The notes under the pieces are model-generated. The model ran no database searches. It was given only the letters and a program-made list of their open reading frames with translations, and was not told the origin of the DNA. The position numbers and the translations under genes were made by a program. From Deltaproteobacteria bacterium (GTDB lineage Bacteria; Desulfobacterota; Syntrophobacteria; BM002): a stretch of 36,900 nt of DNA. This document shows, piece by piece, positions 2,102 to 26,844 of the stretch. Location of the stretch: NCBI GenBank assembly GCA_020353215.1, contig CP070692.1, positions 245,133 to 282,032 on the forward strand, given 5' to 3'. Every line of letters starts with the position of its first letter. Positions within the stretch are counted from its first letter, which is position 1.

Positions 2102-2103
2102 TA

Positions 2104-2544: not shown

Positions 2545-2584
2545 GGTATGTAAGCCCGTCGCACTGGGCAACGATGCGGAAAGG

Positions 2585-3085: not shown

Positions 3086-3149
3086 TGCCATTCGTTGGAA
3101 AGGCTGCAGCCTCCTCAGTGGTAAGAACCTGAATATAGGTGGGCACACC

Positions 3150-6100
3150 ATGGCTATTACCAGTAAGAACAGGCGCACTGTATCAATAGTTCAAACTGGC
3201 AGGACATTTTGGCGACTGGTCATAATGTCCACCCTCTGTCTGGCACTCTTCCTCGTATGTTTCGGCGGCGTTGCTGAGGCCAGCAGGATCCGGGTGTACA
3301 TCGAGCCTGTGGAAGCACGTGATGCAGGGGCTCAATGGAGGATGCGCAACGTCACTAGTGGTGGATCGTGGTCAGCTTGGCTGAATTCAGGAGACCACCG
3401 TAACGTACGGGGCGATCGCACATACGAAATAGAATTCAAGGACATTAGCGCTGGTTCTCCTTGTTCGAGGCCCGCTAATGTTACCTTTGATGGTTGGTGG
3501 GTGGGGACCAGAACCTTAACACAAGTGGCTGGTCCCGATGCTGGAACGTATACCTGTGTATCTCATACCATAACCTCGAGTGCAGGAGCCGGCGGCAGTA
3601 TCGCCCCATTCGGAGCTGTTGCCGTCGCAGACGGAGGCGACCAAACCTTTACCATAACGCCGGATGGAGGCTATCGTGTGCTCGATGTGACGGTGGATGG
3701 GGCGTCAGTTGGCGTGGTAACCAGCTATCCATTCACCGGTGTTATTGGCGACCACACGATCCACGCAGACTTTGAAAGCACTCCCACTTATACCATATCC
3801 GTGACTGCCAACGCCGGTGGGAGTTTCTCCCCGCCGAGCCCAATTACTGTCAGCGAAGGAGACAATCAGTCCATAACCATAACCGCCGATTCCGGCTATC
3901 ATATCCAAGACGTAGCCGTGGATGGCAGTTCAGTGGGTGCGATCAGCCCGGTTTCCTTTACGAATGTGACCGCGAATCATACCGTCACCATAACCTTTGA
4001 AGCAAATGCTTCTTACACCATAACAGCCACTGCAGGAGCCAACGGCAGTATCTCACCGGAAGGCTCAGTGACGGTTCTGGAGGGAGAGGAACCGACCTTC
4101 TCCATCGCGGCAAATCTGGGCTACGAAATATCCGATGTAACCGTGGATGGGGTCTCCCAGGGCGCCATCAGTACGTACACCTTCCCGCCTGTTACCGCAG
4201 ACGGCCATACCATAAGCGCGACTTTTTCTGTATCTGTTGCGCCACCGGCTTCATGCCTGGACGTCGCCGATTCCCCTCTGAGCACCCAGCTTCGGGCGGC
4301 TCCAGCCAACATCATGTTCGTCCTTGACGACTCCGGGAGCATGGACTGGGAGATGATGGTGGATGAAGCCGACGGAACGTATCACTACTCCAACAATGAA
4401 TACGTCTACGTCTTCGATATGTCAGACAATGTGTACACTAGCTATGATACTCTTGATAGCACCACCAAAGCCCACTGGAAACCGCAGTGTTCGACCTATA
4501 ACAAGGTATACTACAACCCGAAAGTCACTTACCAACCGTGGCCGCTCAAGTCCGATGCAACTCCCACGGCTGCCAGATCCAATCCAAACAACGCCAGCCC
4601 CACATTGGATCTCACTGCCGAGTATTATTCCATCAGCAACAGTATCGTGATTGACGAAAGGGATGCGGAGTTCACCGAGGTCGGCAGTTGGAGCGAAGGC
4701 GTTGATCAGCTTTGGGAAGCTTATCCGGAACCCGACAATGGCCAGCATTACAGGGTGACGACCGGCACTTGCACCACCCAGACTGCAACTTGGACCCCGA
4801 GCCTCACCGCAGGAGACTACGAGGTGCGGGCCTGGTGGCGGGACGATAGTGGTTATTCCACAGCGGCGCCCTTTACCATCAATCATTCGGGAGGGTCGAC
4901 AACGGTCACGAAGGATCAGACGAATTATGATTCACAATGGAACAGTCTCGGCAACTTTCACTTCGACGGGATTTCGGGAGACGTGACCCTTTCCTGTGAC
5001 CCGGGTGACTCGAGTAAGGAGGTGTGCGCCGATGCGGTGGAGTTCGTGCCTGCGGACGCCGTGATCAGCATCAAGAATGCGCACTACTTCACCTGGCATG
5101 ATGCCAACACCAACGATGCGGTGGATAGCGGTGAAGTCTATCTCATAAACATAGACAGCGACGATTCGGAGATCGAGTACTGGCAGTGGGACGGCAACGG
5201 AACCAGCGTTACGGAAAGCGGCACCAGTTTCACCCGAATCATGAGCCCCCCAACGGCAATCATTCCCAAGAATGAGGATTGGACTAACCGCACCTACCAG
5301 CAGGAGCTGCAGAACTTTGCCAACTGGTTTTCCTATTATAGAAGACGAGAGTTGACCACCAAAGCTGCAGTTGCCAATGTCATCGACGAGATGCAGGGAG
5401 TTCAGGTGGGTTTTCTCTCCATTCACGATCGGTTGAAGCAGACCGTCCTCAAGGTGAAAATCCAGGAAGGAGCCACCCTTGAGGACAATACCAGCACGCT
5501 GCTGACATCGATGTACGCCAACTATAACTCCAACAGCGGCACACCGCTGAGAAACGCCCTGGATAATGTCGGTGAGTATTACCATCAAAATGACGGCAGA
5601 ACGGGCGGGTTGGGCAGCTCTCCCTATGCCAGCGCTGCTGACGGCGGCGAGTGCCAGCAGGCTTTCGCCATTGCCATGACAGATGGGTTCTATAACGGCA
5701 GCAGCCCTGGGGTGGGAAATCAGGATAATGGTCTGGGTGATCCTTATGAGGATAACTACTCGGACACCCTTGCAGATGTGGCCATGAAGTATTACAAGAA
5801 CGACCTCTCCTCGGGCCTGGATGACCTGGTGCCGACAAACTTCTATGACCAGGCCACCTATCAGCACATGGTCACCTATGGGGTGTCCTTTGGGGTCACC
5901 GGAAACCTGAACCCTGACGATTACGATCTGTTCCACAGCAACCCTGCCCAGAGGGTTTACCCCACCTGGCCTAACCCCTCAAACGGCGATCAGCAGAAAA
6001 TAGACGATCTCTGGCACGCTTCCGTGAACGGCAGAGGCTCCTTCTTGAGCGCCTCTGATCCCCAAGAACTGATCGATTCATTGCTCGGCGTCCTGCAGAA

Positions 6101-10970: not shown

Positions 10971-12359
10971 TCAATCTTGCGAGGAATGATCGAGACCGTA
11001 GGACTTGATCTTGTAGAGCAGGGCGGGGTGACTGATCTCCAGAATTTTTGCAGCCTGAGTTCGGTTACCGCCAGTTTTTTGGAGAGCTCGCTGAATGAGC
11101 GTTTTCTCCAACCGGCGGCTGGCCTCTTTAATGGAAAGGGTCTCATCGTCGGTAAGCACTTCCGTATATTGGGGCCTTGACTGAAAGGATTGAAAGGTAT
11201 CCGGCAGGTCTTCCACCTCAATGGCGGAGCCGCCGGCCATGACTATGGCATGTTCGATAACATTCTCCAACTCTCGGACGTTTCCGGGCCAGTCGTAGCG
11301 CTGAAGGGCGCGAACAACCGCAGCACTTGCTCCTTCGACCTGCGTCTGCAACCGGAGATTCGTCTTCTCAACGAAGTGTGGAAGCAGAAGGGGTATGTCT
11401 TCCCTCCGTTCACGTAGAGACGGCACCCTTACATTCACCACGTTGAGCCGGTAGTAAAGATCCTCCCGGAAACGGCCATCACGGATCTCTGCACTCAGAT
11501 CTTTGTTGGTGGCAGCCATTACCCGTGCGTCCACTTTTACGGTACTGGTGCTACCTAACGGTTCAAATTCACTGACCTGGAGTACCCGGAGAATTTTGGC
11601 TTGGGTGGAGGGTGACATCTCCCCGATTTCATCCAGGAATATGGAGCCGGTATGAGCCAACTGGAAACGTCCCTGCTTCCGAACCACTGCGCCGGTAAAG
11701 GCTCCCTTCTCATGGCCGAAGAGCTCGCTTTCTAAAAGAGTTTCAGGCAACGCAGCACAATTGACCTTGATGAGGGGCTGTTCCCGGCGGGGGCTCTTTT
11801 GGTGGATGGCTTCGGCGATCAGTTCCTTACCGGTGCCGCTCTCACCGGTAATCAGAACCGTGGTTGTGTACTCTGCCACCTTGTCGATGGTGGCAAAGAC
11901 CTCCTGCATGAGGGGGCTGCGGCCAATCATCTGGGCAAAACTGTACCGCTCTTGCATGGTCTGCTGCAACCGCCTGTTTTCTTGACGCAGCCTTTCTCTT
12001 TCCTCGGCCTTTTTCAGTGTCAGAAGTATTTCGTCCGGCTTGAAGGGTTTGGAAACATAGTCATAGGCACCACGTTTCATCGCCTCAATGGCCGTGTCCA
12101 GGGTGCCGTACGCAGACATAACGATGACGGTGGACTCCTGCTGTGTCTCCTGAAACTTATCAAGGAAGGCCATGCCGTCCATAACCGGCATCTTTAGGTC
12201 ACATAGGATGATGTCGAAAAGATCCTCATTGACGAACTCCAGACCCGTTTTGCCATCGGCGGCGCTGGCCACCTGGTAGCCCTCTTTTTCAAGGAGCACT
12301 GCGAGCATGTGACGCATGTTTTCTTCGTCGTCGATGACGAGAATTCTCTTCTGTTCCAC
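10971..12359 (-). CDS. NtrC-family sigma-54-dependent response regulator
   Basis: A 462-residue three-domain activator. Receiver: phospho-acceptor Asp54 (LCDLKMP), acidic pair at 10-12 (DDE), Ser82 and Lys104. AAA+ domain: Walker A GESGTGKE (172-179), the sigma-54 contact loop GAFTGA (219-224), Walker B IFLDEIGEM and an arginine finger region FREDLYYRLN. C-terminal Fis-type helix-turn-helix GGNRTQAAKILEISHPALL. Phosphorylated oligomers of this family remodel sigma-54 RNA polymerase. The GTG start has AGGA 8 bases upstream. The kinase gene at 12503-14206 precedes it in the same transcript, so they form a pair. The target is not shown; the sigma-54 site upstream of fimT is one candidate. Confidence 0.95.
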   Translation of the reverse strand: MEQKRILVIDDEENMRHMLAVLLEKEGYQVASAADGKTGLEFVNEDLFDIILCDLKMPVMDGMAFLDKFQETQQESTVIVMSAYGTLDTAIEAMKRGAYDYVSKPFKPDEILLTLKKAEERERLRQENRRLQQTMQERYSFAQMIGRSPLMQEVFATIDKVAEYTTTVLITGESGTGKELIAEAIHQKSPRREQPLIKVNCAALPETLLESELFGHEKGAFTGAVVRKQGRFQLAHTGSIFLDEIGEMSPSTQAKILRVLQVSEFEPLGSTSTVKVDARVMAATNKDLSAEIRDGRFREDLYYRLNVVNVRVPSLRERREDIPLLLPHFVEKTNLRLQTQVEGASAAVVRALQRYDWPGNVRELENVIEHAIVMAGGSAIEVEDLPDTFQSFQSRPQYTEVLTDDETLSIKEASRRLEKTLIQRALQKTGGNRTQAAKILEISHPALLYKIKSYGLDHSSQD

Positions 12360-12371
12360 GTTGTGATTCCT

Positions 12372-12407
12372 TTGAAAAGTCCAGCCCTCGGCTTTTCAAT
12401 GGGCTGG
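12372..12407 (-). promoter_or_regulatory. Two mutually exclusive hairpins just before the response-regulator start
   Basis: In the minus-strand transcript CCAGCCC (12407-12401) can pair with GGGCTGG (12387-12381), while TTGAAAAG (12399-12392) can pair with CTTTTCAA (12379-12372). The two stems interlock and cannot form together as simple hairpins; they could only coexist as a pseudoknot. The second ends at the AGGA ribosome site of the GTG start. This layout could regulate translation of the regulator relative to the kinase. Confidence 0.4.
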
Positions 12408-12502
12408 TGTCGAGTGAGTAGTGTACATCGACTGATCCGGTGCAATCCCGTTGGTGGGCGATGCCAGGCCTACATTACTGCTTGGTCTGCAGTGCCTACC
12501 GC

Positions 12503-14206
12503 TTAGTGTCTACGGTCTGTCACCGGCTGCGCACTATTTGTTGTGAGCTTCTCCGCTTCCTCATCGAAGAGCGGAAGGAAGATGGACACCGTGGTCTCCT
12601 CTCCAGGGCTGCTGCTCAATTCTATGCGCCCTCCTAAAGTCTGAATGATCTGAATGGACACGGAAAGCCCCAGGCCTGTACCTTTTCCCACCTCCTTGGT
12701 AGTGAAGAACGGATCAAAAACTTTTTCTCGGTCTTCCTCGGCCACTCCAACCCCGGTATCGGCAAACTGAATTTCAATCCAGCGGTTGTCTCCCGTTGCG
12801 TGTGCCCGCCGCAGATGGCGGTAGTCCGCCGCGAGCGGATCGGTTCGCCGCCGCAACGGCTGCTCCTGCCCGTTTTCTGTGGCCCGTATCCCGAGAGTGA
12901 GAGATTTGGTGCTGACCCGTAATTGACCACCCTGGGCTCGCTCATCGGTTGCCGCCATTGCATCAGCAGCGTTCACCATGAGGTTAAAGAACACCTGTTT
13001 GAGTTGATCCGCATTAGCCAAGACAGTGTCCGGGTTGGCGTTCAGATCCAAGAATACCTCTACCTCCTGTTTTCTATATTGGTGCTCCAAAACGGCTAGG
13101 GTTTCTTGGACCAGAGTATGAACCGAGATGCGCTGTCGGTCTGTCGAAGTGGGCCTGGAGAAATCTAGGAGTTGTCTTATAATTTGGTGAATACGCTGAA
13201 TCTCTCTCCCCATGCGTCTGATGAGTTCCTGCCGTTCATCATCCCCAATGTCTTCCCTTTGCAGCAACTCGAGATACCCCAAGACGATACCGATGGGGTT
13301 ACCAATCTCGTGGGCGATACCTGCCGTTAAGCGTCCAACAGAGGCCATTTTTTCACTAAAAATGACCTCTTGCTGAGCACGCTTCAGCTCTAGGTTGGCC
13401 TGCTCCAGGGAGATGATGTGCTGCTTCAACTCTTCTTTGTTCTCAGCCAATCGTTGCAGCATTGCGTTGAGCGCCTGTGCTAGCTTGCTTAACTCATTTT
13501 GCTCTTCTTCACTCAGATCGGGCAACCGATCCCCTTCTTGAAAACCTTCCGCAGTCCGCACCAGGTGCTCTACTGGTCTTACCACCAACTTAGAAAAGAG
13601 ATACGTCCCGAAAGCAACGAGTACGAGAATGTCGAGAACAATGTAAAATAATAGAAGCTTCTGCGATCGCCAAAGGCTTCGGCGAACATCAGCCAAAGAT
13701 GTTTCCAGGCGGACGGCCCCCATAATCTTCGCATTCCTAAAAAGGGGGGAATCAAGCACGATTTTTTCCGGAAGCAACCAGGAAAAAGGCAGAGAGGAGG
13801 GGGTGAAAGAAATGTTATCCACTCCCAGTCGCATCACCCGTTGGAGTTCAGGCAATCGTTGGGGTTTTCTCTTTTTCTTGATATCACTGGCATGAATCAC
13901 TCGCCCAGAACGGTCGGTCAAAGTAATCTGCCACGTTCCAGCAATCTCTTGGGCTTCGGCTGTAAGACTGGGCAGCAGCTGATTATCGTGCACGAATTCA
14001 AGTTTGGAGCGACTGGAGGCGGGTTCGGTGCGTATTAATCGAGCCAAAGAGGACTTGAGCAACAGTCCCTGCTCCACCTTGGCCTGAATCAGGTCGCGTT
14101 GGCTCAGCTTGAGCATGACCACGCCGATCAGCAACATGGCTGAAGCCATCAAAAAGGTGAGGCTGAGCACCACCTTGGTTCTCAAGCTCATCTGGAAGCG
14201 TTTCAT
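12503..14206 (-). CDS. Membrane sensor histidine kinase, partner of the NtrC-type regulator
   Basis: A 567-residue kinase. Membrane segment one (~11-33) and two (~184-206) bracket a ~150-residue periplasmic sensor region. A HAMP linker ([19 protein letters not shown]) and a coiled coil (~250-285) follow. The HisKA box has the phospho-acceptor His299 in [12 protein letters not shown]. The ATPase domain has an N box ([10 protein letters not shown]), G1 (FADTGVGV), F box (FDPFFTTK) and G2 (GKGTGLGLS). An extra ~45-residue Arg/Gln-rich insert lies between the N box and G1. The upstream ribosome site is AGGA about 10 bases before ATG. The sensor region is not a family I can name, so the signal is unknown. 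It is the first gene of a two-gene minus-strand operon. Confidence 0.93.
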
Positions 14207-14958: not shown

Positions 14959-16299
14959 ATGGGTCCCAAAGCATCCTTTCGCGGTGTCTCTTTTCCTCCG
15001 CAAAAAGTTAGCAATCCAGCCATCGAGGACGCTCCTCTACCTCAAAGGGTAGTTCTTCCCCTCGGCGAAGATAGAGATCGGGTTTGCCAGCCCGTTGTTG
15101 AAGTGGGGGAGCAAGTCAAGACAGGACAACTTGTGGGCCAGAGTGCGGATTTCCTCTTGGCACCGGTGCACTCGTCCATCTCCGGGCGGGTAACTGACAT
15201 TCGGCCGTGGTTCGACCAGAAAGGCGGTGAGGTACTGTCCGTCATCGTCGAATCCGACGGCATCGATTCCTGGCAAGAAGAACTCCGTTCGGATGAGCGT
15301 TTCTTGGAAAGAGCGACCGTGCAGATTCTGGCCGACCTTAAGGCTTCTGGAGTTGTGGAAATTGGTCCTCCCGCCATGCCTCTCCATGCCAAGTTTGCCC
15401 AACCCGAGCGCCCAAAAGAGTTTCTTTTCCTGGTGGGAATTCCCCGAGCTAAAATGGTGGATACCGTAATAATCAATGGTATTGACGCTGAACCAGGGAT
15501 GGCAACAAAAAAGGCCATTCTCCAAAAGAACAGCTCGGAGATTCTTGCTGGAATAAAGATTATTCAAAAGCTCTTGGGGTCGGCCCGAGTCGTCCTCGCT
15601 GTAGGTTCCAATGGTTCTCTCAACTCACCCTTGACCAGCGAACTCGCAGGACTGGGCGTTCGGGTTTTCCAGGGCAAAGACAAATATCCTTTGGGCCTCA
15701 ACCCAATCCTGATCAAATGCGTCACCGGCCGAGAGATTCCACTGCCCGATGGCAGTGAACAAGACATCGGTGTGGCGGTGGTTGATGCAGTTACTCTGGT
15801 GCATTTGGTGGAGGCTGTTCGAGATCGAAAGCCCCAAGTGGAAAAGGTGGTGAGCGTATCTGGCGCAGGCATGAGTGCCGTGAAGAACTTCAAGGTTAGA
15901 CTGGGAACGGTCATAAGCGATCTCGTAGAGCAACTGGAAGTTCTTAAGGGTGAGCCTGTGAAGGTGATCGCCGGGGGAGCCATGACAGGTGATGCACTGT
16001 TTAGCGCAGACATACCGGTCACCAAAGAGACAGATGCCCTGGTCTTTCAAACGGCAGGCGAGGCAAAAAGCTTTTCTCCAGACGCTTGCATCAACTGCGG
16101 CATGTGCGTCCGTCATTGTCCAGCCAAGCTCCTTCCCAATGAGTTGTCTAAGTACTGCGAGTTCAGCATGTTCGAGGAGGCCAGAGATGAATACCTGCTT
16201 CACTGCATTGAATGCGGCATCTGCGCCTATGTTTGTCCTGAAAAGAGACCCATGCTGCATCTGATGCGATATGGTAAACGTGAGCTAAGTCTAGTCTAA
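14959..16299 (+). CDS. rnfC: Rnf electron-transport complex subunit C
   Basis: A 446-residue peripheral subunit. The N-terminal part (VSFPPQKVSNPA, APVHSSISGRV) is the RnfC barrel-sandwich/SLBB-type region, and the middle has the NADH/FMN-binding Rossmann segment related to complex I NuoF. Two ferredoxin-type clusters lie at C377, C380, C383, C387 (CINCGMCVRHCP) and C416, C419, C422, C426 (CIECGICAYVCP). RnfC passes electrons between NAD(H) and the other Rnf subunits on the cytoplasmic side. It is the compact form without the long repeat tail of E. coli RsxC. AGAAGG lies 6 bases before the ATG. It is the first gene of the rnfCDGEAB set and 12 bp precede rnfD. Confidence 0.95.
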   Translation: MGPKASFRGVSFPPQKVSNPAIEDAPLPQRVVLPLGEDRDRVCQPVVEVGEQVKTGQLVGQSADFLLAPVHSSISGRVTDIRPWFDQKGGEVLSVIVESDGIDSWQEELRSDERFLERATVQILADLKASGVVEIGPPAMPLHAKFAQPERPKEFLFLVGIPRAKMVDTVIINGIDAEPGMATKKAILQKNSSEILAGIKIIQKLLGSARVVLAVGSNGSLNSPLTSELAGLGVRVFQGKDKYPLGLNPILIKCVTGREIPLPDGSEQDIGVAVVDAVTLVHLVEAVRDRKPQVEKVVSVSGAGMSAVKNFKVRLGTVISDLVEQLEVLKGEPVKVIAGGAMTGDALFSADIPVTKETDALVFQTAGEAKSFSPDACINCGMCVRHCPAKLLPNELSKYCEFSMFEEARDEYLLHCIECGICAYVCPEKRPMLHLMRYGKRELSLV

Positions 16300-16311: not shown

Positions 16312-17307
16312 ATGGATAGAGCAATTTCATTAGGTAAGCCAATGCTTCGAGTTTCAGTCGCCCCTCACATTCTGCAAAAAATCACCACTTCGAACCTCAT
16401 GTACAACACGCTGATAGCGCTGGTACCTGCCCTTTTGGCTGGCATATATTTCTTCGGTTTCGCCGCGCTGAAGCTGGCCCTTATATGCATGGTCACTGCG
16501 GTGGCGTGTGAGGCCGGAATGCAGGGTCTCACGGGTCGCAAGCTTGCTATCAAGAATGGCAGCGGCCTGCTGCTGGGTCTCCTTTTCGCTCTGATCTGCT
16601 CCCCTGAAATTCCTTGGTGGACCGCTGTGGCGGGTACTGCCATAGCCGTGATTTTGGGCAGAGAGATTTATGGCGGTCTGGGCAACAACCCTTTCAATCC
16701 TGTGCTGGTGGGATGGGCCGTGGCCAGAATTTCATGGTCGGATCACATGACAACCTGGATAATGCCTGAACCGCTTTTCGGTTTGGAACCTGGAGGGTAC
16801 ATCGAGTATCCTCCCTTGGAGGTTATCAGGGTGGATGGACTTGAGGCCCTGGTTGACTTGCCCTGGCTGGACCTTTTCATTGGAAACGTTCCTGGGACCA
16901 TTGGTACGGTTTCGGTGGCTGCCGTCCTTATTGGGGGCATCTACCTCCTGGCGCGGCGCATAATCACCTGGCACGTACCGGTGAGTTTTCTGGCCTCTGC
17001 GTGGCTTTTCGGCTTGATCTTCTGGCTTATCGACCCGGAGACCTATGCCAACCCCACCATATATATATTGAGTGGCTGGATGGTTCTGGGTGCCTTTTTC
17101 CTGGCTACCGATAAAGGTACCGTGCCGGTGACGGGACCTGGGATGATTATTTTCGGCATTGGTTGCGGTTTGATTACGATGATCATTCGTTATTGGGGTG
17201 GATTCGTAGATGGTGTGGCTTTTGCCATATTGCTCATGAATGCTACCACACCGCTATTGGACCGGGTGCGACCCCGGGTCTACGGGAGGGTGAAAGAAGT
17301 TGCGTGA
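16312..17307 (+). CDS. rnfD: Rnf complex membrane subunit D
   Basis: A 331-residue integral membrane protein with about eight to ten hydrophobic segments. Family signs include the opening VSVAPHILQKITTSNLMYNT, the GGLGNNPFNPVLVGWA loop and the C-terminal AFAILLMNATTPLLDR followed by PRVYGR. RnfD carries a covalently bound FMN on a threonine and forms part of the ion-translocating core. The gene follows rnfC by 12 bp, and its stop overlaps the start of rnfG. ApbE, the enzyme that attaches this FMN, is encoded at 23754-24797. Ion specificity (Na+ or H+) cannot be read from this sequence. Confidence 0.95.
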   Translation: MDRAISLGKPMLRVSVAPHILQKITTSNLMYNTLIALVPALLAGIYFFGFAALKLALICMVTAVACEAGMQGLTGRKLAIKNGSGLLLGLLFALICSPEIPWWTAVAGTAIAVILGREIYGGLGNNPFNPVLVGWAVARISWSDHMTTWIMPEPLFGLEPGGYIEYPPLEVIRVDGLEALVDLPWLDLFIGNVPGTIGTVSVAAVLIGGIYLLARRIITWHVPVSFLASAWLFGLIFWLIDPETYANPTIYILSGWMVLGAFFLATDKGTVPVTGPGMIIFGIGCGLITMIIRYWGGFVDGVAFAILLMNATTPLLDRVRPRVYGRVKEVA

Positions 17308-17878
17308 TCTAATCAAGATGGTCGTGGTTTTGGCGGTGATTTGCACCACTTCTGGGGTGGTATTGTCCTATGTTAATACGGCTACAGAAGCGCCCAGGGA
17401 GTATCAGTACATCAAGTTCGTGCAAGAGCCTTCCATGAAGGCAGTTCTGAGCGACTATGACAACGATCCCATCAAGGAACGGATCAAGTTGGTGGTGGGA
17501 GAAAACGAGGAAGGCAACCCCATAGAAACGGTTGTGTTTCCAGCAAAGAAGGGCGGAAAAACTCATGCCGTCGCTTATAGTGCTACGGCTAAAGGATACC
17601 ATGATCTGATAGAGGTCATGGTGGGGGTTGATCCGGACGGCACGCTCACCGGAATCAGTATTATGACCCATACCGAGACCCCCGGTTTGGGTGCGCGCAT
17701 TGAAGAGCCTGAGTTCACTGACCAATTTCAGGGCTTGGACGTGGACACAGCCAAACTTAGTGATGAGGGTGGGCAGGTTGACGCTCTCAGCGGGGCCACC
17801 TTCTCCACCGCCGGTGTAATTGCCGCGGTTGGTTCCGCTCTGGAGCAGTTTCCTCAAATCAAGAAGGAGACCTTCTAG
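17300..17878 (+). CDS. rnfG: Rnf complex flavoprotein subunit G
   Basis: A 192-residue protein with one N-terminal membrane helix (MVVVLAVICTTSGVVLSYVN) and a periplasmic FMN-binding domain. The covalent-flavin motif SGAT lies at residues 164-167, with Thr167 the expected attachment site. The upstream HTETPGLGARIEEP segment is typical of RnfG/NqrC. A TTG start at 17300 overlaps the rnfD stop and has GGAGG about 10 bases upstream; an ATG at 17318 would shorten the N-terminus by six residues. It accepts electrons from RnfD/E/A and needs ApbE for maturation. Confidence 0.95.
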   Translation: MRDLIKMVVVLAVICTTSGVVLSYVNTATEAPREYQYIKFVQEPSMKAVLSDYDNDPIKERIKLVVGENEEGNPIETVVFPAKKGGKTHAVAYSATAKGYHDLIEVMVGVDPDGTLTGISIMTHTETPGLGARIEEPEFTDQFQGLDVDTAKLSDEGGQVDALSGATFSTAGVIAAVGSALEQFPQIKKETF

Positions 17879-17880
17879 TC

Positions 17881-18480
17881 ATGAGTGTGGTCAAGGAATT
17901 TACCAAAGGATTATGGCAGGAGCTTCCACCTTTCCGGCTGGTGTTGGGGCTGTGCCCAACCCTCGCAGTCACAACCATGGCCAAAAACGGGTTGGGAATG
18001 GGGTTAGCCACTACGTTCGTCCTTATCAATTCCAACGTTATTGTGTCTGTACTCAGAAAAATCATACCCGGTAAGGTTCGAATAGCCTCCTACATAGTGG
18101 TTATCGCCTCTTTCGTGGTCATGGCGGAATTACTTCTTCAAGCTTACTGGTACCCCATGTATGAGGAACTGGGAATCTTCGTGCCCTTGATAGTCGTTAA
18201 TTGTATTATCCTTGGCCGGGCCGAGGCATTTGCCTCCAAGAACCCAATCGTTCATTCACTTGCGGACGGACTCGGAATCGGATTGGGCTTCACCATTTCT
18301 CTGACAATCCTTGGCGGTATTCGCGAAATTCTTGGAACCGGAGAATTCTTCAGTATGGCAGTTATGTGGCCCTCGTATGAACCGTTCAGCTTCATGGTCA
18401 AGGCGCCCGGCGCCTTTGTCTGTTTAGGGTTCCTACTTGGCTTGATGAATATAATAAGTCGCAGAAGACCGGCACATTAG
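17881..18480 (+). CDS. rnfE: Rnf complex membrane subunit E
   Basis: A 199-residue membrane protein of the RnfE/NqrD family. It opens with EFTKGLWQELPPFRLVLGLCPTLAVT, has about six hydrophobic helices and contains the family segment LIVVNCIILGRAEAFASKN. RnfA and RnfE are homologous, inversely oriented subunits that hold a shared iron-sulfur cluster at their interface; the Cys in LGLCPTLAV and the Cys in VNCIILG are the conserved positions visible here. It starts 2 bp after rnfG and lies 35 bp before rnfA, consistent with one transcript. Confidence 0.95.
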   Translation: MSVVKEFTKGLWQELPPFRLVLGLCPTLAVTTMAKNGLGMGLATTFVLINSNVIVSVLRKIIPGKVRIASYIVVIASFVVMAELLLQAYWYPMYEELGIFVPLIVVNCIILGRAEAFASKNPIVHSLADGLGIGLGFTISLTILGGIREILGTGEFFSMAVMWPSYEPFSFMVKAPGAFVCLGFLLGLMNIISRRRPAH

Positions 18481-18515: not shown

Positions 18516-19094
18516 ATGTCTGAATATCTACTTCTCATTGTCAGCGCCATTTTGGTCAGTAATATCGTTCTTGCCCGTTATCTGGGAAATTGCCCCTTCC
18601 TGGGCGTGTCCCAAAAAATGGACACTGCCGTTGGTATGGGAATGGCGGTAATTTTTGTCGTCACCCTCGCCGGAATGATCACCTGGGTGGTGCAGTACGC
18701 AATTTTGAATCCTCTGGGTCTTGAATACTTGCGGACAATTGCCTTTATCTTGGTCATTGCCTCACTTGTGCAGTTGGTGGAAATGTTTTTGCAGAAGTCG
18801 ATACCGGCCCTGTACAAAGCCTTGGGCATCTTTCTTCCTCTAATCACCACTAACTGTGCAGTACTCGGTATAGCCATCATTAATATCCAAGAGGAATATG
18901 ATTTCATGCACACGGTGGTATTTTCCTTCGCCTCGGGGGTGGGATTTACTCTGGCTATGGTGCTGCTGGCCAGCCTGCGGGAAAGATTCCCCACGGCCAG
19001 GATTCCCACCACTTTTGCCGGAATGCCCATCGCCATGATCACCGTGGGTCTTCTAGCGTTGGCTTTTCTGGGATTCACCGGATTGGTGGATTAA
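18516..19094 (+). CDS. rnfA: Rnf complex membrane subunit A
   Basis: A 192-residue membrane protein of the RnfA/NqrE family with about six helices. Typical segments are NIVLARYLGNCPFLGVSQ and LPLITTNCAVLG; these two cysteines mirror those in RnfE and form the intramembrane iron-sulfur site. GGAAG lies about 10 bases before the ATG. About 200 bp separate its stop from rnfB, a larger gap than elsewhere in the operon, but no terminator is visible there. Confidence 0.95.
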   Translation: MSEYLLLIVSAILVSNIVLARYLGNCPFLGVSQKMDTAVGMGMAVIFVVTLAGMITWVVQYAILNPLGLEYLRTIAFILVIASLVQLVEMFLQKSIPALYKALGIFLPLITTNCAVLGIAIINIQEEYDFMHTVVFSFASGVGFTLAMVLLASLRERFPTARIPTTFAGMPIAMITVGLLALAFLGFTGLVD

Positions 19095-19297
19095 CACGGC
19101 AACCATGGAATAGTGGAAAATTGCCGCAAATCGGTAAAGATAAGTGGGTCAGTTCGTTACTTCTTGAACTCCCCAAGGGTCCAACATTCCAATTGTTCCG
19201 ATCTTCCATAAGAGTGGCAAAAGCTAAAACGTACCGAAATGCTGGAATCCCCAATACGTTGGGAAAAACTTCGAGACTTGATTGAGGAGATGTGAGT

Positions 19298-21370
19298 ATG
19301 CTTGCGGCGGGCTTGGCTATAGGAGGTCTTGGTTTGCTGGCTGGCGTTGGACTGGCCGTGGCCTCCAGAGTGTTTTATGTTTACGTGGATCCTCAGATCA
19401 TAGAGGTTGAGGAGGCTCTCCCTGGTGCCAACTGTGGCGGCTGTGGACTTCCTGGCTGTAGCTCCGCCGCCCAGGCCATTGTGGTCGGCCAATTGGCTCC
19501 CAATGCCTGCGTAGGCGGCGGACCGGACGTGCACACAAAGGTGGCGGAAATCCTCGGGGTGGAAGTGGAGCTTAAAGAGCCGGAAATCGCCCAGATCGGC
19601 TGTCGTTACAGCGTTGCCAAGGCAGATATCAAATATCTATACGACGGTGTTTATGACTGCCGGGCCGCCATGCTCCTGAATGGTGGGGCCAAGGAATGTC
19701 CCATTGGATGCATTGGGTTGGGCTCCTGTGTAAAGGCCTGTCCCTTCGGCGCTCTTTCCATGGGAGACGACGGCCTTCCTGTTGTGCACGAGGATATTTG
19801 TACCGGCTGCGGCACCTGTGTGCGCACTTGTCCGAAAGATATCATCACCTTGACCTCGGTAAGTAACCGTATCTTAGGGGAGTATACGACGTCCGAGTGC
19901 ACCGCTCCTTGTCAACGAACCTGTCCAGCGGGCATCAATATACCGGAGCAGATCAGACAAACAGTCCTCGGCAATTATTTGGAGGCAACACGGATAATCA
20001 AAGAGCGGAATCCCTTGCCGTTGGTTTGCGGTCGGATTTGTCCTCACCCTTGCGAGTTTGAGTGCCGCCGCAACTTGGAAGATGAACCGGTGGCCATCAA
20101 TTACTTAAAACGATTTGTGGCCGACTATGAGCGAGCAAGTGGCCGGCGGCTGCAGCTCTTCAAAGCACCCGAGACGGGCCGGCGTCTCGCTGTTGTGGGC
20201 GGTGGGGCCGAAGGGTTGACTGCAGCTTGTTTCATGGCCCGATTGGGTCATTCACCCACTGTCTTCGAGGCCATGCCCAAGTTGGGTGGTCTGCTTCGCA
20301 CGGTAATCCCCGAATCCCGTCTGCCTAGAGACGTTCTCGATTGGGAGATTGAAGGCATCTTGGAGATGGGAGTTGAGGCTCAGACCGGCAAATCGCTCGG
20401 GAGGGATTTCACTGTGGCATCGCTCCTGAAGGAGGGATATGAGGCGGTTCTTCTTGCCACTGGCGGCTGGGACGCCATGCTCATGCGTGGGCAGGAACCC
20501 AATGTAGAACAATCCGTTCCCGGGCTCTACCTGCTGCTCCCCGTTTCACTGGCCTGGGCCCTGGGCATTGACGTCCCCGTGGGCAAGCGAGTTGCAATTG
20601 CCGGCGGTGGAGAGATGGCACTTGATGCTGCCAAGCATTGCTTGCAGTTGGGCGCAGAACAGGTCACGATCTTCCACCGTCGTTCCCAACAAGAGTTGGG
20701 ACTTCCGGACTCTGAACTGACCAAGTTAAGTGACCAGGGAATCCAACTCCTTTTTCGCTCCACTCTTACCCAACTCAAAGGGATAGACGAGCAACTGACC
20801 CAACTAGTTTATCGCCAACTCGCTTCGGGGAACGGCGGCGACTCTATTCGTTCGGCGCCGGGACGGTTTAAGGAAACATTCCTCGCGGTGGATACTGTCA
20901 TCGCCGCCGGCGGCCGGTTACCGGAAATGATTTTCGTTAAAGTACCGTCTCTTGAAGGAGAGGAATCTCCGCTGCTCTGGCAAACCATATCGCCTTACCA
21001 CGAACCTCCACCCGTGAGAACAGAGGGTGTTTTTGACACCTCGGAACCCATGAGTGACTATCGCGCGGCGGTGGAGGCCATAGGCGCTGGTCGGCGGGGC
21101 GCCGCATCCGTCCATCTTTACTTAGCGGGCAAACAAGTTATCCCGCCAGAGAATATGATCACCACCGTAACAAAGGTGCTGGACGTGGGTCAGGTGGAGA
21201 ACCTGATGCCAGCAGAACCTCGACAAAAAATGCCCGAACGGACTACTGAAGAACGAGTTGATCCTTCGCTGGAAGTAGAACTCGGACTGAATGAGGAAAT
21301 GGCCCGACAAGAATCCGCCAGATGCCTCAACTGCGGACTGATCTGCTACACAAGGAGTAAGTATCATTGA
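19298..21370 (+). CDS. rnfB: RnfB fused to a GltD-like FAD/NAD(P)H oxidoreductase
   Basis: About 690 residues; standalone RnfB is usually 190-330. Residues 1-190 are RnfB: an N-terminal membrane helix, the [4Fe-4S] motif C46-C49-C54-C71 (ANCGGCGLPGC ... NAC), then two ferredoxin clusters (CIGLGSCVKACP, CTGCGTCVRTCP). From about 195 a full GltD/NfnB-like module follows. It has an Fe-S helical part (CTAPCQRTCPAGINIP, CGRICPHPCEFECRRN), an FAD site (VVGGGAEG), a nucleotide site (IAGGGEMALDAAK) and a C-terminal ESARCLNCGLICY. RnfB receives ferredoxin electrons; the added module should exchange them with NAD(P)H or another partner. ATG at 19298 is chosen because GAGGAG lies 8 bases before it; a GTG at 19292 is too close. 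The reading frame is continuous. Confidence 0.93.
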   Translation: MLAAGLAIGGLGLLAGVGLAVASRVFYVYVDPQIIEVEEALPGANCGGCGLPGCSSAAQAIVVGQLAPNACVGGGPDVHTKVAEILGVEVELKEPEIAQIGCRYSVAKADIKYLYDGVYDCRAAMLLNGGAKECPIGCIGLGSCVKACPFGALSMGDDGLPVVHEDICTGCGTCVRTCPKDIITLTSVSNRILGEYTTSECTAPCQRTCPAGINIPEQIRQTVLGNYLEATRIIKERNPLPLVCGRICPHPCEFECRRNLEDEPVAINYLKRFVADYERASGRRLQLFKAPETGRRLAVVGGGAEGLTAACFMARLGHSPTVFEAMPKLGGLLRTVIPESRLPRDVLDWEIEGILEMGVEAQTGKSLGRDFTVASLLKEGYEAVLLATGGWDAMLMRGQEPNVEQSVPGLYLLLPVSLAWALGIDVPVGKRVAIAGGGEMALDAAKHCLQLGAEQVTIFHRRSQQELGLPDSELTKLSDQGIQLLFRSTLTQLKGIDEQLTQLVYRQLASGNGGDSIRSAPGRFKETFLAVDTVIAAGGRLPEMIFVKVPSLEGEESPLLWQTISPYHEPPPVRTEGVFDTSEPMSDYRAAVEAIGAGRRGAASVHLYLAGKQVIPPENMITTVTKVLDVGQVENLMPAEPRQKMPERTTEERVDPSLEVELGLNEEMARQESARCLNCGLICYTRSKYH

Positions 21371-21421: not shown

Positions 21422-21453
21422 CGCAATGAAGTATTGAGAGGATGGAGGACAGC

Positions 21454-22332
21454 ATGGCTCAAATCTTGGTTCTGGACGACGTCCAGGAGGCCGTAGACGC
21501 CGTCCGCAGAGTGTTGGAGAAAAGAGGGTATGAGGTCGTCGGCTTCACGGATGAAGATGCGGCCATTGATCATGTGAATAACCATCCGGTTGATCTTGCA
21601 ATCCTCGACATAAAACTGAAAAAGATGGATGGCGTTCAGGTCTTAGGCAAGCTGAAGCAGATCCAACCCTCCATTAAAGTCATTATGCTTACAGGTTATC
21701 CCACACACGCAACCGTTGAGGAAGCTATGCGCCTCGGTGCGAGTGCCTACTGTATGAAACCCATCGACCGGAGCGAAATTGAAAGCAAGGTGGCCGAGGT
21801 TTTGGCTCAGGAGACCCGTATAGAGCTGGTTGGGTGGCCCGATAAGGCAGAAGTGAACACGCAAGATATTCTCTTCAGGTCCTTAACCAATGGCGTCTAT
21901 ATCGTCACGGTTCAGGGCGAAGGCGAGATTAATGGGGTCACCACACCCTGGGTCAGCCAGCTATCGTATGACCCCCCGATGGTGATGGTTGCCATTTCAC
22001 CTCTGAGAAAATGCCACGAAATGATCACCAACAGCGGGCAGTTTGCGGTGAACGTTCTGGGATCCGGCCAGGTAGATCTCGCCTCCCGATTCGGTTTAAC
22101 TACAGGACGCGAAATGGACAAATTCGAAGGGGTTGTCCCTGAGCGAACACCCGCGGGCAACCCTCTCTTGTCGAATGTTGTTGCTTATATTGATTGCGAA
22201 CTAGTGAAAACGGTAGCGGTTGGAGACCATTCCTTGTTCGTTGGCGAGGTGATAGGGGCGGAAGTTCTTGACCTGACCTTATCGCCCCTGACATTTGACC
22301 CGTCTGATTATTTTTGGGAAATTCGCCCATGA
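21454..22332 (+). CDS. Response-regulator receiver fused to a flavin reductase-like FMN domain
   Basis: A 292-residue two-domain protein from ATG 21454, which has GGAGG 5 bases upstream (ATG 21442 lacks a usable site). Residues 1-120 are a CheY-like receiver with all key residues: acidic pair in LVLDDVQ, phospho-acceptor Asp52 (AILDIKL), Thr80 (MLTGY) and Lys102 (CMKPID). Residues ~135-290 match the flavin reductase/flavoredoxin FMN-binding fold: LFRSLTNGVYIVTV, NGVTTPWVSQLSYDPPMVMV, CHEMITNSGQFAVNVLG and a YIDCELVKTVAVGDHSLFVGEV strand pair. Receivers normally drive DNA-binding or enzymatic output; a flavin reductase output is rare. It follows rnfB by 83 bp, and its stop overlaps rseC by 4 bp. 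No partner kinase is adjacent. Function is inferred: phosphorylation-gated electron transfer to or from flavin. Confidence 0.88.
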   Translation: MAQILVLDDVQEAVDAVRRVLEKRGYEVVGFTDEDAAIDHVNNHPVDLAILDIKLKKMDGVQVLGKLKQIQPSIKVIMLTGYPTHATVEEAMRLGASAYCMKPIDRSEIESKVAEVLAQETRIELVGWPDKAEVNTQDILFRSLTNGVYIVTVQGEGEINGVTTPWVSQLSYDPPMVMVAISPLRKCHEMITNSGQFAVNVLGSGQVDLASRFGLTTGREMDKFEGVVPERTPAGNPLLSNVVAYIDCELVKTVAVGDHSLFVGEVIGAEVLDLTLSPLTFDPSDYFWEIRP

Positions 22333-22766
22333 TTACGGAAGAGGGCATGGTCAGAAGAACAATGGGCAACAAAGCCTGGGTTATTACCAAGCGGAGCGAA
22401 ATGTGCGAAGCTTGCGCTTCCCATGGAGCCTGTAAGACTTTAGGTGGCGGGAAAGAGATGGAGGTGGAGGCAATAAACGACGTCCAGGCCAGAGCCGGAG
22501 ACCAGGTGCTCTTGACCCTGCAGGACCAGTCCCTGGTGAAACTATCGTTCTTGGTCTATATGTTCCCCATTTTGGCTTTGATTGTAGGAGCTGCGCTTGG
22601 GCAAAAAGCAGCTCCTTTTGTGGGAGTAAATTCTGAGTTGAGCTCCTTTGGGCTTGGTGCCATCTTTTTCGGACTCGCTTTTCTCCTCGTCAGAAAGAAA
22701 GACAGGAAGTTGGAGCGGACCGGGGGAACCATTCCCAGAGTTGCTCGAATCATTAAGGGAGAATGA
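22329..22766 (+). CDS. rseC: RseC/MucC-family membrane protein (SoxR-reducing system component)
   Basis: A 145-residue protein. The ATG at 22329 overlaps the preceding stop (ATGA), indicating coupling. The N-terminus reads ITEEGMVRRTMGNKAWVIT, then the cysteine cluster CEACASHGAC (C-x2-C-x5-C), a small beta domain, two membrane helices (FLVYMFPILALIVGAAL; GLGAIFFGLAFLLVRKK) and a basic tail. In E. coli RseC works with the Rsx (Rnf) complex to keep SoxR reduced. Here there is no soxR in view, but the linkage to rnf is kept. The cysteines probably bind a metal or Fe-S cluster. Its stop overlaps the next ATG by 3 bases. Confidence 0.88.
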   Translation: MITEEGMVRRTMGNKAWVITKRSEMCEACASHGACKTLGGGKEMEVEAINDVQARAGDQVLLTLQDQSLVKLSFLVYMFPILALIVGAALGQKAAPFVGVNSELSSFGLGAIFFGLAFLLVRKKDRKLERTGGTIPRVARIIKGE

Positions 22767-23575
22767 TGAAAGAACAAATTCAGGAGCACGTTAAGAATCT
22801 TCTTGCAGAGGGAAGAATCGAGGGCTTCTTAGGGTTGAGGCAGCAAGGAACCGACATCGGCCCCCACCTCTTCAAGAGTGCTGACGAACTCGGCGATCTG
22901 TCACTCGGCGATCGGCAAGACCCAGGTGACTCTCGCTACCCTTTGGACAAAATCCTCAGCCGCCTAGCCTTCAACTATCCAACGGACACTTTCGGTGTGC
23001 TGGTCAGAGGTTGTGACGAACGTGCTCTCCAGCAGCTCTTCACGGTTAGTATGCTACACCGAGATCGGGTAGTCCCGGTGGGATTTGCCTGTCCACCCGA
23101 GTTGGCCGAGGCCCATCAATGCTGGAAGCCTTTCCCGGAAGCTTTAGTGGCAGGGGAGCCTAGTCCGGGAGTCGTCGGTGGAGAAGATGCGGTAGGGTCC
23201 CAGCTGGGACTGCTCGGCAAACTGCAGGAGTGGTTTGATACTTTCGACCGTTGCGTGAAGTGTTATGGCTGCCGCAACATCTGCCCTGTTTGTTATTGTC
23301 ACGATTGTACGCTCGAGGAAGCTGCCTTGTTGCCCACAGGAGAGATTCCTCCTGCAAACCCCAACTTTCTCATGACCCGTGCGATGCACATGGTTGGCCG
23401 TTCTTTATGCATTTATTGCGGCCTCTGTGAAGAGGTCTGCCCTGCAGATATCCCTTTGAAGAGCCTGTATAGACTGGTGTCGAAGATCGTGGGCCAAGAG
23501 GCTGTAACTCCAGAAGGTCTTGCCGCACGTCAGGAGACAGCGGGCCAATCCGTTGATAAGGCGGCAGCAGGATAA
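22763..23575 (+). CDS. FdhB/FrhB-like iron-sulfur electron-transfer protein
   Basis: A 270-residue soluble protein. The segment GVLVRGCDERALQQLF and the following RDRVVPVGFACP match the FrhB/FdhB C-terminal domain (F420-hydrogenase and formate dehydrogenase beta subunits). Two ferredoxin clusters follow: C164, C167, C170, C174 (CVKCYGCRNIC), extended by extra cysteines in PVCYCHDC, and C216, C219, C222, C226 (CIYCGLCEEVCP). A ribosome site AGGGAG precedes the ATG, which overlaps the rseC stop. No F420 dependence can be claimed. Given the downstream fdhF, it is a good candidate for the electron-transfer subunit of that formate dehydrogenase, linking it to Rnf. The C-terminal 30 residues are low-complexity. 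Confidence 0.8.
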   Translation: MMKEQIQEHVKNLLAEGRIEGFLGLRQQGTDIGPHLFKSADELGDLSLGDRQDPGDSRYPLDKILSRLAFNYPTDTFGVLVRGCDERALQQLFTVSMLHRDRVVPVGFACPPELAEAHQCWKPFPEALVAGEPSPGVVGGEDAVGSQLGLLGKLQEWFDTFDRCVKCYGCRNICPVCYCHDCTLEEAALLPTGEIPPANPNFLMTRAMHMVGRSLCIYCGLCEEVCPADIPLKSLYRLVSKIVGQEAVTPEGLAARQETAGQSVDKAAAG

Positions 23576-23753: not shown

Positions 23754-24797
23754 ATGAATCAACCTCTGCCCAATATGCCCAAACCGATCAGCCGGAGGAC
23801 CTTTTTGTCTCTTACAGGTACGCTGAGTTTGGGCGTGGCCACTGTTGGTATTCCCCTCCCCGCGGAAGCTGTCAAATTCAACCGTACCTTGTACAAGGTT
23901 TCCAAGAGCCGGTTAGGCATGGGCACTTTTATCAACATGATCGTTTTCCATCCTTCCAAGGGAGAGACCGACGAAGCTATGGGGCGAGCCTTTGAAGAGA
24001 TTAATCGGTTAACCAGTCTCATGACTCGCTTTCAGAGCACCTCGTACATCGGCCACCTGAACAGTAGTGGCACCCTTAGAGAGGCCCCTCCCGAGGTGAT
24101 GGAGGTGTTGAGGTCTTCACTCCATTACCATACGATCAGCCAGGGAGCCTTCGATATAACAGTTATGCCCATTGTTGACCTCTATCAGCGAAGTTTCCAA
24201 GCTAACAATTCTCCTCCTTCCCCGCGAGCCTTACGGGAGACAATGGAGAGGGTGGGCAGCCAACATCTTAGAATCACTAATGATTCCGTTTCTTTTGCCC
24301 GAAGTGGCATGGAAGTTACCCTCGATGGCATTGCCAAAGGATATATTATTGATCGAGCCATGACGGTTCTTCGACAGCAAGGGCTGCAGCACGCCCTGAT
24401 CAATGCGGGTGGAGATATCGTGCTCCACGGCGGCAAAGGGGAGGGCAAACCCTGGAAGATCGGTATTCAGGACCCCTGGAACCGCAAGGGTCATGTGGAT
24501 GTGGTTACTCTTAATACTGGGGCAATTGCCACCTCGGGTAACTACGAGGTCTTTTTTGACCGAGAGAGATTGTTCCATCATCTCATCAGACCCAATTCTG
24601 GCAACCCAGCTCCTGAGACTGCCAGCGTTACTATTAGGGCAGCTAGCTGCATGGAAGCCGACGCCATAGCAACCAGTGTCTATGTAATGGGACCTGGTAG
24701 AGGGAACCAGTTTATTGGACAGCTTCCGTCCATAGAGGGGCTCGTCATAAATAGTCAGCGAAAGAAAATGCCATCCTCAGGATGGAATAGAATCTAA
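23754..24797 (+). CDS. apbE: FAD:protein FMN transferase ApbE, with Tat-type signal
   Basis: A 347-residue ApbE-family enzyme that moves FMN from FAD to threonine in proteins such as RnfG and RnfD. The N-terminus carries SRRTFLSLTG followed by a hydrophobic stretch, a twin-arginine signal, with probable cleavage after PAEA. Family motifs: LMTRFQSTSYIGHLNSSG, FDITVMPIVDLY, LDGIAKGYIIDRA, LINAGGDIVLHGG, AIATSGNYE and a C-terminal EADAIATSVYVMG. AAGGAGG lies upstream. Export fits the periplasmic location of the RnfG flavin domain. It is 10 bp from fdhF. Both follow the repeat-bearing gap, so they may be read from the rnf transcript or from their own promoter. Confidence 0.95.
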   Translation: MNQPLPNMPKPISRRTFLSLTGTLSLGVATVGIPLPAEAVKFNRTLYKVSKSRLGMGTFINMIVFHPSKGETDEAMGRAFEEINRLTSLMTRFQSTSYIGHLNSSGTLREAPPEVMEVLRSSLHYHTISQGAFDITVMPIVDLYQRSFQANNSPPSPRALRETMERVGSQHLRITNDSVSFARSGMEVTLDGIAKGYIIDRAMTVLRQQGLQHALINAGGDIVLHGGKGEGKPWKIGIQDPWNRKGHVDVVTLNTGAIATSGNYEVFFDRERLFHHLIRPNSGNPAPETASVTIRAASCMEADAIATSVYVMGPGRGNQFIGQLPSIEGLVINSQRKKMPSSGWNRI

Positions 24798-24807
24798 GGA
24801 GTCTTGC

Positions 24808-26844
24808 ATGGACTACAAAACTGTTTTGACCACCTGTGCCTATTGTGGCTGCGGTTGTGGCCTCTACCTAGAGGTTTTGGACGGCCGTCTCATTGGCACG
24901 CTACCCTCCAAGACCAATCCCATCAATGAGGGTAAGCTTTGTGTGAAGGGCTGGAACATCCACGAGTTTGTCCAGCACCCGAGCCGGCTCACCAAGCCGC
25001 TGATTCGCAAAAACGGCACCCTTACTGAGGCCTCTTGGGATGAAGCCCTGGACTACACCGCCTCCCGGCTCAAGGAGATCAAGGAAGCTCATGGCAGTCA
25101 CAGCATTGCTTTTCTGGCCTCGGCCAAGGTGACCAATGAGGAAAACTACGTAATCATGAAGTTTGCCCGAGCTGCAGTGGGGACCAACAATGTGGACCAC
25201 TGCGCCCGGCTCTGACACTCCTCCACGGTGGTAGGTCTTGCCGCCGCTTTTGGCAGTGGAGCCATGACCAACTCCGTTGCCGAGATTGAGGATGCCGACT
25301 GCATTTTTGTTATCGGCTCCAACACCACCTCATCGCACCCTCTGGTTGCCACCCGGATCTTTCGGGCCATAGCGAAAGGGGCCAAGCTGGTGGTTGCAGA
25401 TCCCAGAAGGATTCAGCTGGCCCTTAAGGCTGATACCTACGTGCGCCAAAACCTTGGTACTGATGTGGCTTTGCTAAACGGGATGATGCATGTGATCTTG
25501 AAGAACAACTGGCACGATCAAGCCTTCGTTGAGGAGAGGTGCGAGGGTTTTGAGGAGTTCAAGGAGGTAATTGACAATTATCCCCCGGAGAAGGTGGCTG
25601 AGACTACCGGGGTTTCTGCTGATGATATTGTCAAAATCGCCGAATACTACGCCAAGGCGGAAGCAGCCTCAATTGTTTACTGCATGGGGATTACCCAGCA
25701 CACCACAGGCGTTGACAACGTGAAATCCCTGGCAAATCTTGCCATGCTCACCGGCAACATGGGCAAAGAGTCCACCGGGGTGAACCCGCTTCGAGGCCAA
25801 AATAACGTCCAGGGCGCCTGTGACATGGGAGGCTTGCCCAATGTGTATTCGGGCTACCAGGCAGTAAATGTCATCGACAATCAGACCAAGTTTGAGAACG
25901 CCTGGAATGCCAAGCTTTCGGACCAGATCGGTCTCACCATTCCTTTTATGCTCTCCGGGCTTTCTGAAGGCACGTTGAAGGCCCTTTACGTGGTGGGGGA
26001 AAACCCCATGGTGAGTGACCCTGACATCGGCCATGTGGAAAAGGCCATGAAGAACGCAGAATTCTTGGTGGTCCAGGATATCTTCCGAACCCCCACTGCG
26101 GAGTTTGCTCACGTGGTTTTGCCCGGAACCTCATTTGCCGAAAAGGATGGCACCTTCACCAACACCGAGCGTCGGGTGCAACTGGTCAGAAAGGCCGTTG
26201 AGCCCGTGGGGGAGTCCAAGGCTGACTGGGAAATTATCCAGGAACTCTCCAATCGCTTCGGCTATCAGATGAACTATGAGAGTGCCGAAGATATCATGGA
26301 GGAGATCTCCACTCTTACGCCATCTTATGGCGGCATCACTTACGAGAGGTTGCAGGGAGAGGGTCTTGCCTGGCCATGCCCGGACAAGGAACATCCCGGC
26401 ACCAAATTTCTGCACAAGGACAAATTTGCCCGAGGCCTGGGACTCTTTCATGCCATTGAATATAAGCCGCCGGCCGAGGTGGTGGATGACGAGTTTCCTT
26501 TCTGGCTCAGCACCGGTAGAGTGCACGTCCACTATCATACCGGCACCATGACCCGAGTGTCTCCCTCGCTTCATGCAGAGATCCCGGAAGGGACCTTGGA
26601 GATGCACCCCGAAGACGCCCAGCGCTTGGCTGTGCGTGAGGGGGAGAAAGTCAAGGTTGCCTCCCGCCGCGGTGAGATTACAGCGAAGGTGACCGTGACC
26701 GACCGGGTGGACGAGGGCGTGGTGTTCATGCCGTTTCATTTTGCCGAGACCTGCGCCAATGTTCTCACCAACCCGGCCCACGACCCCACGGCCAAAATCC
26801 CTGAATTCAAGGTATGCGCCGTGAAGGTGGAAAAGGCGGCCTGA
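24808..26844 (+). CDS. fdhF: Selenocysteine-containing formate dehydrogenase catalytic subunit (in-frame TGA at 25213)
   Basis: One 678-residue molybdenum or tungsten bis-pterin enzyme read through TGA 25213-25215. That codon is residue 136, in DHCARL-U-HSSTVV, aligning with Sec140-His141 of E. coli FdhF. The N-terminal [4Fe-4S] ligands are C10, C13, C17 and C45, and Lys47 follows as in known formate dehydrogenases. Further family motifs: GSNTTSSHPLVATRIF, DPRRIQLA, MGITQHTTGVDNV, GNMGKESTGVNPLRGQNNVQGACDMG, FLVVQDIFRTPTAEFAHVVLP and the C-terminal molybdopterin-dinucleotide barrel (FWLSTGRVHVHYHTGTMTR). It oxidises formate or reduces CO2. No signal peptide is seen, so it is cytoplasmic. Placement after rnf, the FdhB-like protein and apbE suggests electron exchange with Rnf or ferredoxin. 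It is not a pseudogene: homology continues without a shift across the TGA. Confidence 0.95.
25213..25251 (+). promoter_or_regulatory. Bacterial SECIS element directing selenocysteine insertion in fdhF
   Basis: Right after TGA, GGTGG (25227-25231) pairs with CCGCC (25241-25245) and closes on the loop AGGTCT (25233-25238). Both the loop sequence and its distance from the TGA (17 bases between) equal those of the E. coli fdhF SECIS bound by SelB. Confidence 0.85.

Follow-up and report, generated by a model that had tools for sequence, protein, structure and literature searches.

A receiver-flavin reductase fusion in an rnf operon: composition, origin and exchange between lineages

The rnf operon in the window (the whole 36,900-nt stretch of DNA analysed, from a 4.70-Mb assembly referred to here as G000) includes a gene that joins a response-regulator receiver to a flavin reductase in one reading frame. 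Judged by its sequence, the product is a response regulator with an HpaC-like short-chain flavin reductase as its enzymatic output. The composition, conservation, origin and exchange of this fusion are established below. Close relatives carry a plain reductase in the same slot, and the fused gene has displaced this enzyme in situ as it moved between lineages. Of the mechanisms considered, gating of the reductase by phosphorylation is the likeliest; it is discussed after the evidence on how the gene arose and spread.

Composition of the fusion protein

The fusion is encoded by a single open frame of 292 codons with no internal stop. The start at 21454 suits the GGAGG ribosome site better than does an upstream ATG at 21442. 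Its features, with the basis of each in brackets, are:

21454..22332, + strand: REC-flavin reductase fusion protein, 292 aa (open reading frame and domain matches)
21463..21792, + strand: receiver domain PF00072, residues 4-113 (Pfam; alignment of receivers)
21607-21609, 21691-21693 and 21757-21759, + strand: codons of receiver residues D52, T80 and K102
21817..21855, + strand: core of the linker, residues 122-134, low-confidence and probably flexible (pLDDT below 50)
21850..21861, + strand: fossil of the old reductase start, GAA GTG AAC ACG, with ACG (Thr136) at 21859-21861 (alignment at the join)
21877..22311, + strand: flavin reductase-like domain PF01613, residues 142-286 (Pfam; Foldseek)
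21964..21978, + strand: (S/T/C)xxPP motif, here SYDPP, residues 171-175 (HpaC-like reductase motif)
22222..22230, + strand: GDH motif, residues 257-259 (HpaC-like reductase motif)

Both domains match far above the curated cut-offs, PF00072 with an E-value of 5e-26 (91.4 bits against 30.2) and PF01613 with 2e-39 (135.5 bits against 27), which bears out the one-frame join to a flavin reductase-like domain proposed in an earlier, sequence-only reading of this DNA. The residues on which that reading based its intact CheY-like receiver (Asp52, Thr80 and Lys102) were also confirmed, and the acidic pair D8 and D9 is present as well. In an alignment of 20 receivers of the subfamily, D8, D9, the phospho-acceptor D52 and K102 are invariant, and at position 80 a single sequence has S where the other 19 have T. 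A linker of ~20 residues leads to the reductase. By sequence the protein belongs with the enzyme-output response regulators: one polypeptide combines a receiver with an entire enzyme domain, and the combination is conserved in more than one genome.

HpaC-like short-chain flavin reductases are defined by the (S/T/C)xxPP and GDH motifs, and the His of GDH contacts nicotinamide or flavin (PMC11795597). In the first motif, the second P is replaced by L in one fusion (L041) and one plain enzyme (L043). An AlphaFold2 model (59-row alignment) is confident for both domains, with pLDDT mostly above 90, and falls below 50 in the linker core. Because its pTM is 0.56, the model does not fix the orientation of receiver and reductase, and provides no interface to back allostery. 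The best structural matches of the modelled reductase are solved flavin reductases, headed in Foldseek by the A. fulgidus ferric reductase 1i0r (36% identity, 1.4 A).

The rnf operon

The genes around the fusion are:

10971..12359, - strand: NtrC-type sigma54 response regulator (comparison with relatives)
12503..14206, - strand: HAMP histidine kinase, divergent from rnf (comparison with relatives)
14959..16299, + strand: rnfC (Pfam, NCBIfam)
16312..17307, + strand: rnfD (Pfam, NCBIfam)
17300..17878, + strand: rnfG (Pfam, NCBIfam)
17881..18480, + strand: rnfE (Pfam, NCBIfam)
18516..19094, + strand: rnfA (Pfam, NCBIfam)
19292..21370, + strand: RnfB fused to a GltD-like NAD(P)H oxidoreductase domain (Pfam, NCBIfam)
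22329..22766, + strand: rseC, its ATG overlapping the TGA of the fusion by 4 bp (sequence, domain match)
22763..23575, + strand: 4Fe-4S protein, 270 aa (domain match)
23754..24797, + strand: apbE, FMN transferase (Pfam, NCBIfam)

The order is thus rnfC-D-G-E-A-B, then the fusion, then rseC. This order, with the genes identified by Pfam and NCBIfam, agrees with the rnf operon context claimed earlier and with the claimed site between rnfB and rseC, where the 4-bp overlap can be seen in the sequence as ATGA at 22329-22332. No terminator-like site was found between rnfB and the fusion, and no Rfam families in the window; matches to a sigma-54 promoter pattern upstream of rnf are no commoner than in shuffled sequences. 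The histidine kinase/NtrC pair divergent from rnf (10971-14206, minus strand) is conserved in those relatives whose contigs span that region, and likely regulates transcription of the operon.

Several other features of the window deserve mention. The C-terminal part of RnfB consists of PF14691 plus Pyr_redox (GltD-like) and is conserved in the operon-bearing relatives; the RnfB-GltD of G014 is 48% identical to that at 19292-21370. Through such a fusion, the ferredoxin-side subunit of Rnf would carry a module linked directly to NAD(P)H. Downstream, 24808-26844 encodes an FdhF-like formate dehydrogenase whose residue 136 is taken to be selenocysteine, its codon being the in-frame TGA at 25213-25215; gene callers would divide this gene into two. 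At the other end of the window, 714-8159 holds type IV pilus-type genes (PilW-like, N-methylation motif) followed by a 1669-aa ORF.

Distribution of the fusion

In whole-genome searches within the family, G004, G005 and G010 proved to carry this fusion too, at the corresponding locus. A scan of 84,980 species found it in the metagenome assemblies Desulfobacteraceae bacterium BM002, Deltaproteobacteria bin40 and Deltaproteobacteria bin63, which appear to be the same three assemblies. When the full protein was searched against 56 genomes from the class and 395 from the phylum, with only the top candidates in each genome scored, no other locus matched both domains. Independent receiver-flavin reductase fusions may exist beyond the phylum searched.

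The sequence-only reading had proposed that absence of the fusion from related genomes would mark it as an artefact. It is present in four assemblies at one locus, and relatives without it have the plain enzyme in that slot. An assembly or frameshift error as the source of the fused ORF might be suspected because several of the genomes were assembled from metagenomes, in some cases with N spacers at the joins, but the four copies differ from one another (88-91% identity), their frames are continuous, no N occurs in the region, and the codon at the old reductase start has changed in the same way in each. With independent copies in four assemblies this reading was rejected, and its probability is now negligible. 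The window itself has no N gaps. Elsewhere, runs of about 100 N occur in single-contig G004 (L039 4618-4717, 10024-10123 and 14100-14199) and apparently in G000 (L067); these are probably joined contigs, so gene order across the joins is unreliable.

The plain reductase and the fossil start codon

In four other members of the family (G001, G002, G007 and G009) rnfB is followed by a plain flavin reductase of the same subfamily, about 60-72% identical and with no remnant of a receiver; the G009 contig stops inside this gene. The slot is the same and the leader is homologous to that of the fusion, but these genes start at an ATG that the fusions have as ACG, and they end in ...DYF, lacking the WEIRP tail with which the fusion overlaps rseC. 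At the join, GAA GTG AAG ATG CAG in the plain gene of G001 aligns with GAA GTG AAC ACG CAA in the window. The change of the plain gene's ATG to ACG (Thr136) is found in all four fusions, and what was the leader of the plain gene now supplies codons of the linker. A lost start and a leader turned into coding sequence indicate that the plain enzyme is most likely the ancestral state, and that the receiver was added at its 5' end. A reading of the stand-alone reductases as interrupted by stops and completed by readthrough was rejected, these stops being natural ends (...DYF, then stop). In G007, about 240 nt with palindromic stretches lie between the plain reductase gene and rseC (L043 2587-2826).

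In the phylum, as in Nitrospirota, more distant plain relatives (36-50% identity) are frequent. Outside this bacterial family none of those with neighbours examined has rnf genes beside it. Among the relatives examined, the subfamily is therefore not regularly encoded with rnf, as an accessory component would be, although the slot is conserved within the family; a role as dedicated Rnf partner would be family-specific at best. In Chloroflexota (L088-L092 and L094), PF01613 is fused to a C-terminal domain resembling, by eye, an HMG-CoA lyase/DRE-TIM enzyme (about 460 aa).

Exchange between lineages

Exchange is seen in G010. Along the operon its rnfB and rseC are mostly 80-99% identical to those of G001 and G007, which have the plain gene, but its receiver-reductase segment instead resembles those of G000, G004 and G005 (about 80-98%). 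Just before this segment G010 retains the relic leader of the plain reductase gene, in common with G007 and G009, and the 3' switch point falls in the first codons of rseC. Trees conflict accordingly: monophyly of the four fusions is rejected for the flanking proteins (AU p 0.00027), and for the reductase a grouping of G010 with G001 and G007 is rejected (AU p 0.00015).

Synonymous distances point the same way. Between G000 and G010 they are 0.23 for the receiver and 0.16 for the reductase, against 0.98 for rnfB and 1.25 for rseC; between G000 and G004 they are 0.42 and 0.33, against 1.84 and 0.95. The sister pair G004 and G005 has no such gap between cassette and flanks, as vertical descent predicts. 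The conflict between trees, with a synonymous divergence several-fold lower in the cassette than in its flanks, shows that the fused gene was exchanged between lineages, and as the pattern goes beyond G010 a single chimeric contig cannot explain it. Purifying selection constrains both halves: dN/dS is 0.07-0.15 in the receiver and 0.12-0.32 in the reductase.

Origin of the receiver and candidate kinases

The receivers closest to the fused one are stand-alone genes of G004, G005, G010 and G012 (76-79% identity), and a receiver tree places the fused receivers next to these. A gene for a multi-PAS protein comes after the stand-alone receiver gene in G004, G005 and G010. The G004 protein, of 835 aa, has HisKA and HATPase domains and is a histidine kinase; the G010 contig ends within this gene, and in G005 the frame stops once the PAS domains have been encoded. 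A kinase gene adjoining a stand-alone receiver lies at L150 6863-9370. In G010 and G004, HdrA- or HdrD-like redox genes are found upstream of the stand-alone receiver. The nearness of stand-alone receivers of the subfamily to HdrD- or HdrA-like genes as well as to multi-PAS sensors (L150 3988-6702, L168 2570-7917) hints that this type of receiver serves energy metabolism.

The stand-alone CheY-like receivers (L168, L149 and L150) share the catalytic residues of the fused one and nearly the same kinase-facing surface, with 8-12 of 14 residues the same in alpha1 and 7-8 of 9 in beta5-alpha5, but they are single-domain proteins beside multi-PAS sensors elsewhere in the genome. With these surfaces nearly identical, the same kind of kinase may serve both receivers. 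A donor was also sought in the genome of the window, where the nearest paralogue is just 50% identical (L067 8174-8542), so that the donor type would be absent or lost there. No close orthologue of the multi-PAS kinase was found in that genome (91.5% complete), the best match being 42% and covering only the C-terminal part. The divergent histidine kinase/NtrC pair was rejected as a source of the receiver, its receiver being only about 34% identical to the fused one. The rnf-adjacent kinase of that pair (12503-14206, minus strand) is the other candidate that could phosphorylate the fusion.

Possible roles of the fusion

The history that best fits these data begins with a flavin reductase gene already in place between rnfB and rseC. 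A CheY-like receiver gene, of the type found beside multi-PAS sensors, was joined in frame to its 5' leader, the reductase lost its own start (ATG to ACG), and recombination then put the fused gene in the place of the plain one in further lineages. As homodimers, HpaC-like reductases transfer hydride to flavin from NAD(P)H, and in receivers it is the alpha4-beta5-alpha5 face that changes upon phosphorylation. A sensor kinase would phosphorylate Asp52, and the receiver, flexibly tethered to a presumed homodimeric reductase, would alter its activity or the access of its partners, putting NAD(P)H-to-flavin or metal electron transfer beside Rnf under fast post-translational control. The reductase would take or give electrons in an Rnf-associated pool; the RnfB-GltD protein, the Fe-S protein, ApbE and the downstream selenocysteine formate dehydrogenase suggest that it may trade electrons there. 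The sequence-only reading had inferred that phosphorylation could gate electron flow between Rnf, a flavin and a downstream acceptor; the data bear this out in part, namely for a genuine fusion that keeps its phospho-acceptor residues and reductase motifs under purifying selection in an rnf operon.

An enzymatic-output response regulator, in effect a kinase-controlled reductase whose fused gene spread by replacement, is the best explanation at present, held with a little better than even confidence. A more specific version, in which a kinase switches an NAD(P)H:flavin (or ferric) reductase exchanging electrons with Rnf/RnfB-GltD, and selection favours the switch as an allele that passes from species to species in place of the unswitched enzyme, can be put forward only tentatively. 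If true, it would be phosphorylation rather than transcription that apportions cytoplasmic electrons to energy conservation or to a flavin or metal acceptor.

Of the other roles that might be imagined, the one to be taken most seriously, though somewhat unlikely, is that the receiver is a docking or localisation module bringing a constitutively active reductase to a kinase complex, a receiver-binding partner or Rnf, with no gating of catalysis. The predicted flexible linker and the lack of a reliable domain interface in the model would suit this, as would the stand-alone receivers of the subfamily, which act without an output domain, beside sensors and in some cases near HdrA-/HdrD-like genes. 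Pure docking, however, would not need the full phospho-acceptor set (D8, D9, D52, T80 and K102) that has been conserved. Single-domain receivers can also act as a phosphate sink, and descent of the fused receiver from a single-domain subfamily beside multi-PAS sensors would be consistent with a reversed flow of information, in which the flavin domain senses redox state and tunes a receiver that drains, or competes for, the phosphoryl groups of a kinase. This seems improbable, given that a receiver placed N-terminal to an output domain usually controls that output, and that the reductase has retained its SxxPP and GDH motifs. Less probable still is a receiver carried as a neutral passenger on a reductase that functions as it did before the fusion. 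The plain enzyme does serve the same operon in sister species, but the low dN/dS of the receiver, its active-site residues invariant over synonymous distances of 0.2-0.6, and the exchange of the whole fused unit between lineages all speak against it.

For the kinase-controlled reductase, replacement of the plain enzyme by the fusion suggests that cells of these few related anaerobic bacteria may tune a redox reaction directly and not via gene regulation. Two-component systems are mostly regarded as regulators of gene expression. Closely related bacteria provide a matched pair, one rnf operon whose reductase bears a receiver in some species and lacks it in others, plus the stand-alone parts, and by comparison of fused and plain forms a direct control of redox metabolism by a kinase can be put to the test. 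In its fossil start codon and leader, the gene preserves an unusually clear record of the birth and spread of an enzyme-output response regulator.

Comparison with known systems

No description of a flavin reductase as the output of a receiver was found in the open-access papers searched. Enzymes are recognised outputs of response regulators; such proteins form a class of narrow phyletic distribution, limited to one family or a few genera, and REC-thioredoxin reductase and REC-pyruvate phosphate dikinase proteins have been reported from metagenomes (PMC5847659). Since receiver-enzyme fusions are thus known, the architecture described here is unusual but not unprecedented in kind.

Among HpaC-like reductases, of which the nearest solved are A. 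fulgidus 1i0r and Thermus 1wgb, the fusion shares the fold and both the SxxPP and GDH motifs, but has an N-terminal receiver and is encoded, within this bacterial family, in an rnf operon. Unlike in HpaC-like systems, no gene for a two-component monooxygenase was found among its annotated neighbours. With the REC-metabolic enzyme fusions (PMC5847659) it has in common a receiver joined to a metabolic enzyme and a narrow distribution. It differs from them in that the output is a short-chain flavin reductase in an rnf operon, that a fossil start codon records the join, and that the plain enzyme in place was replaced by exchange.
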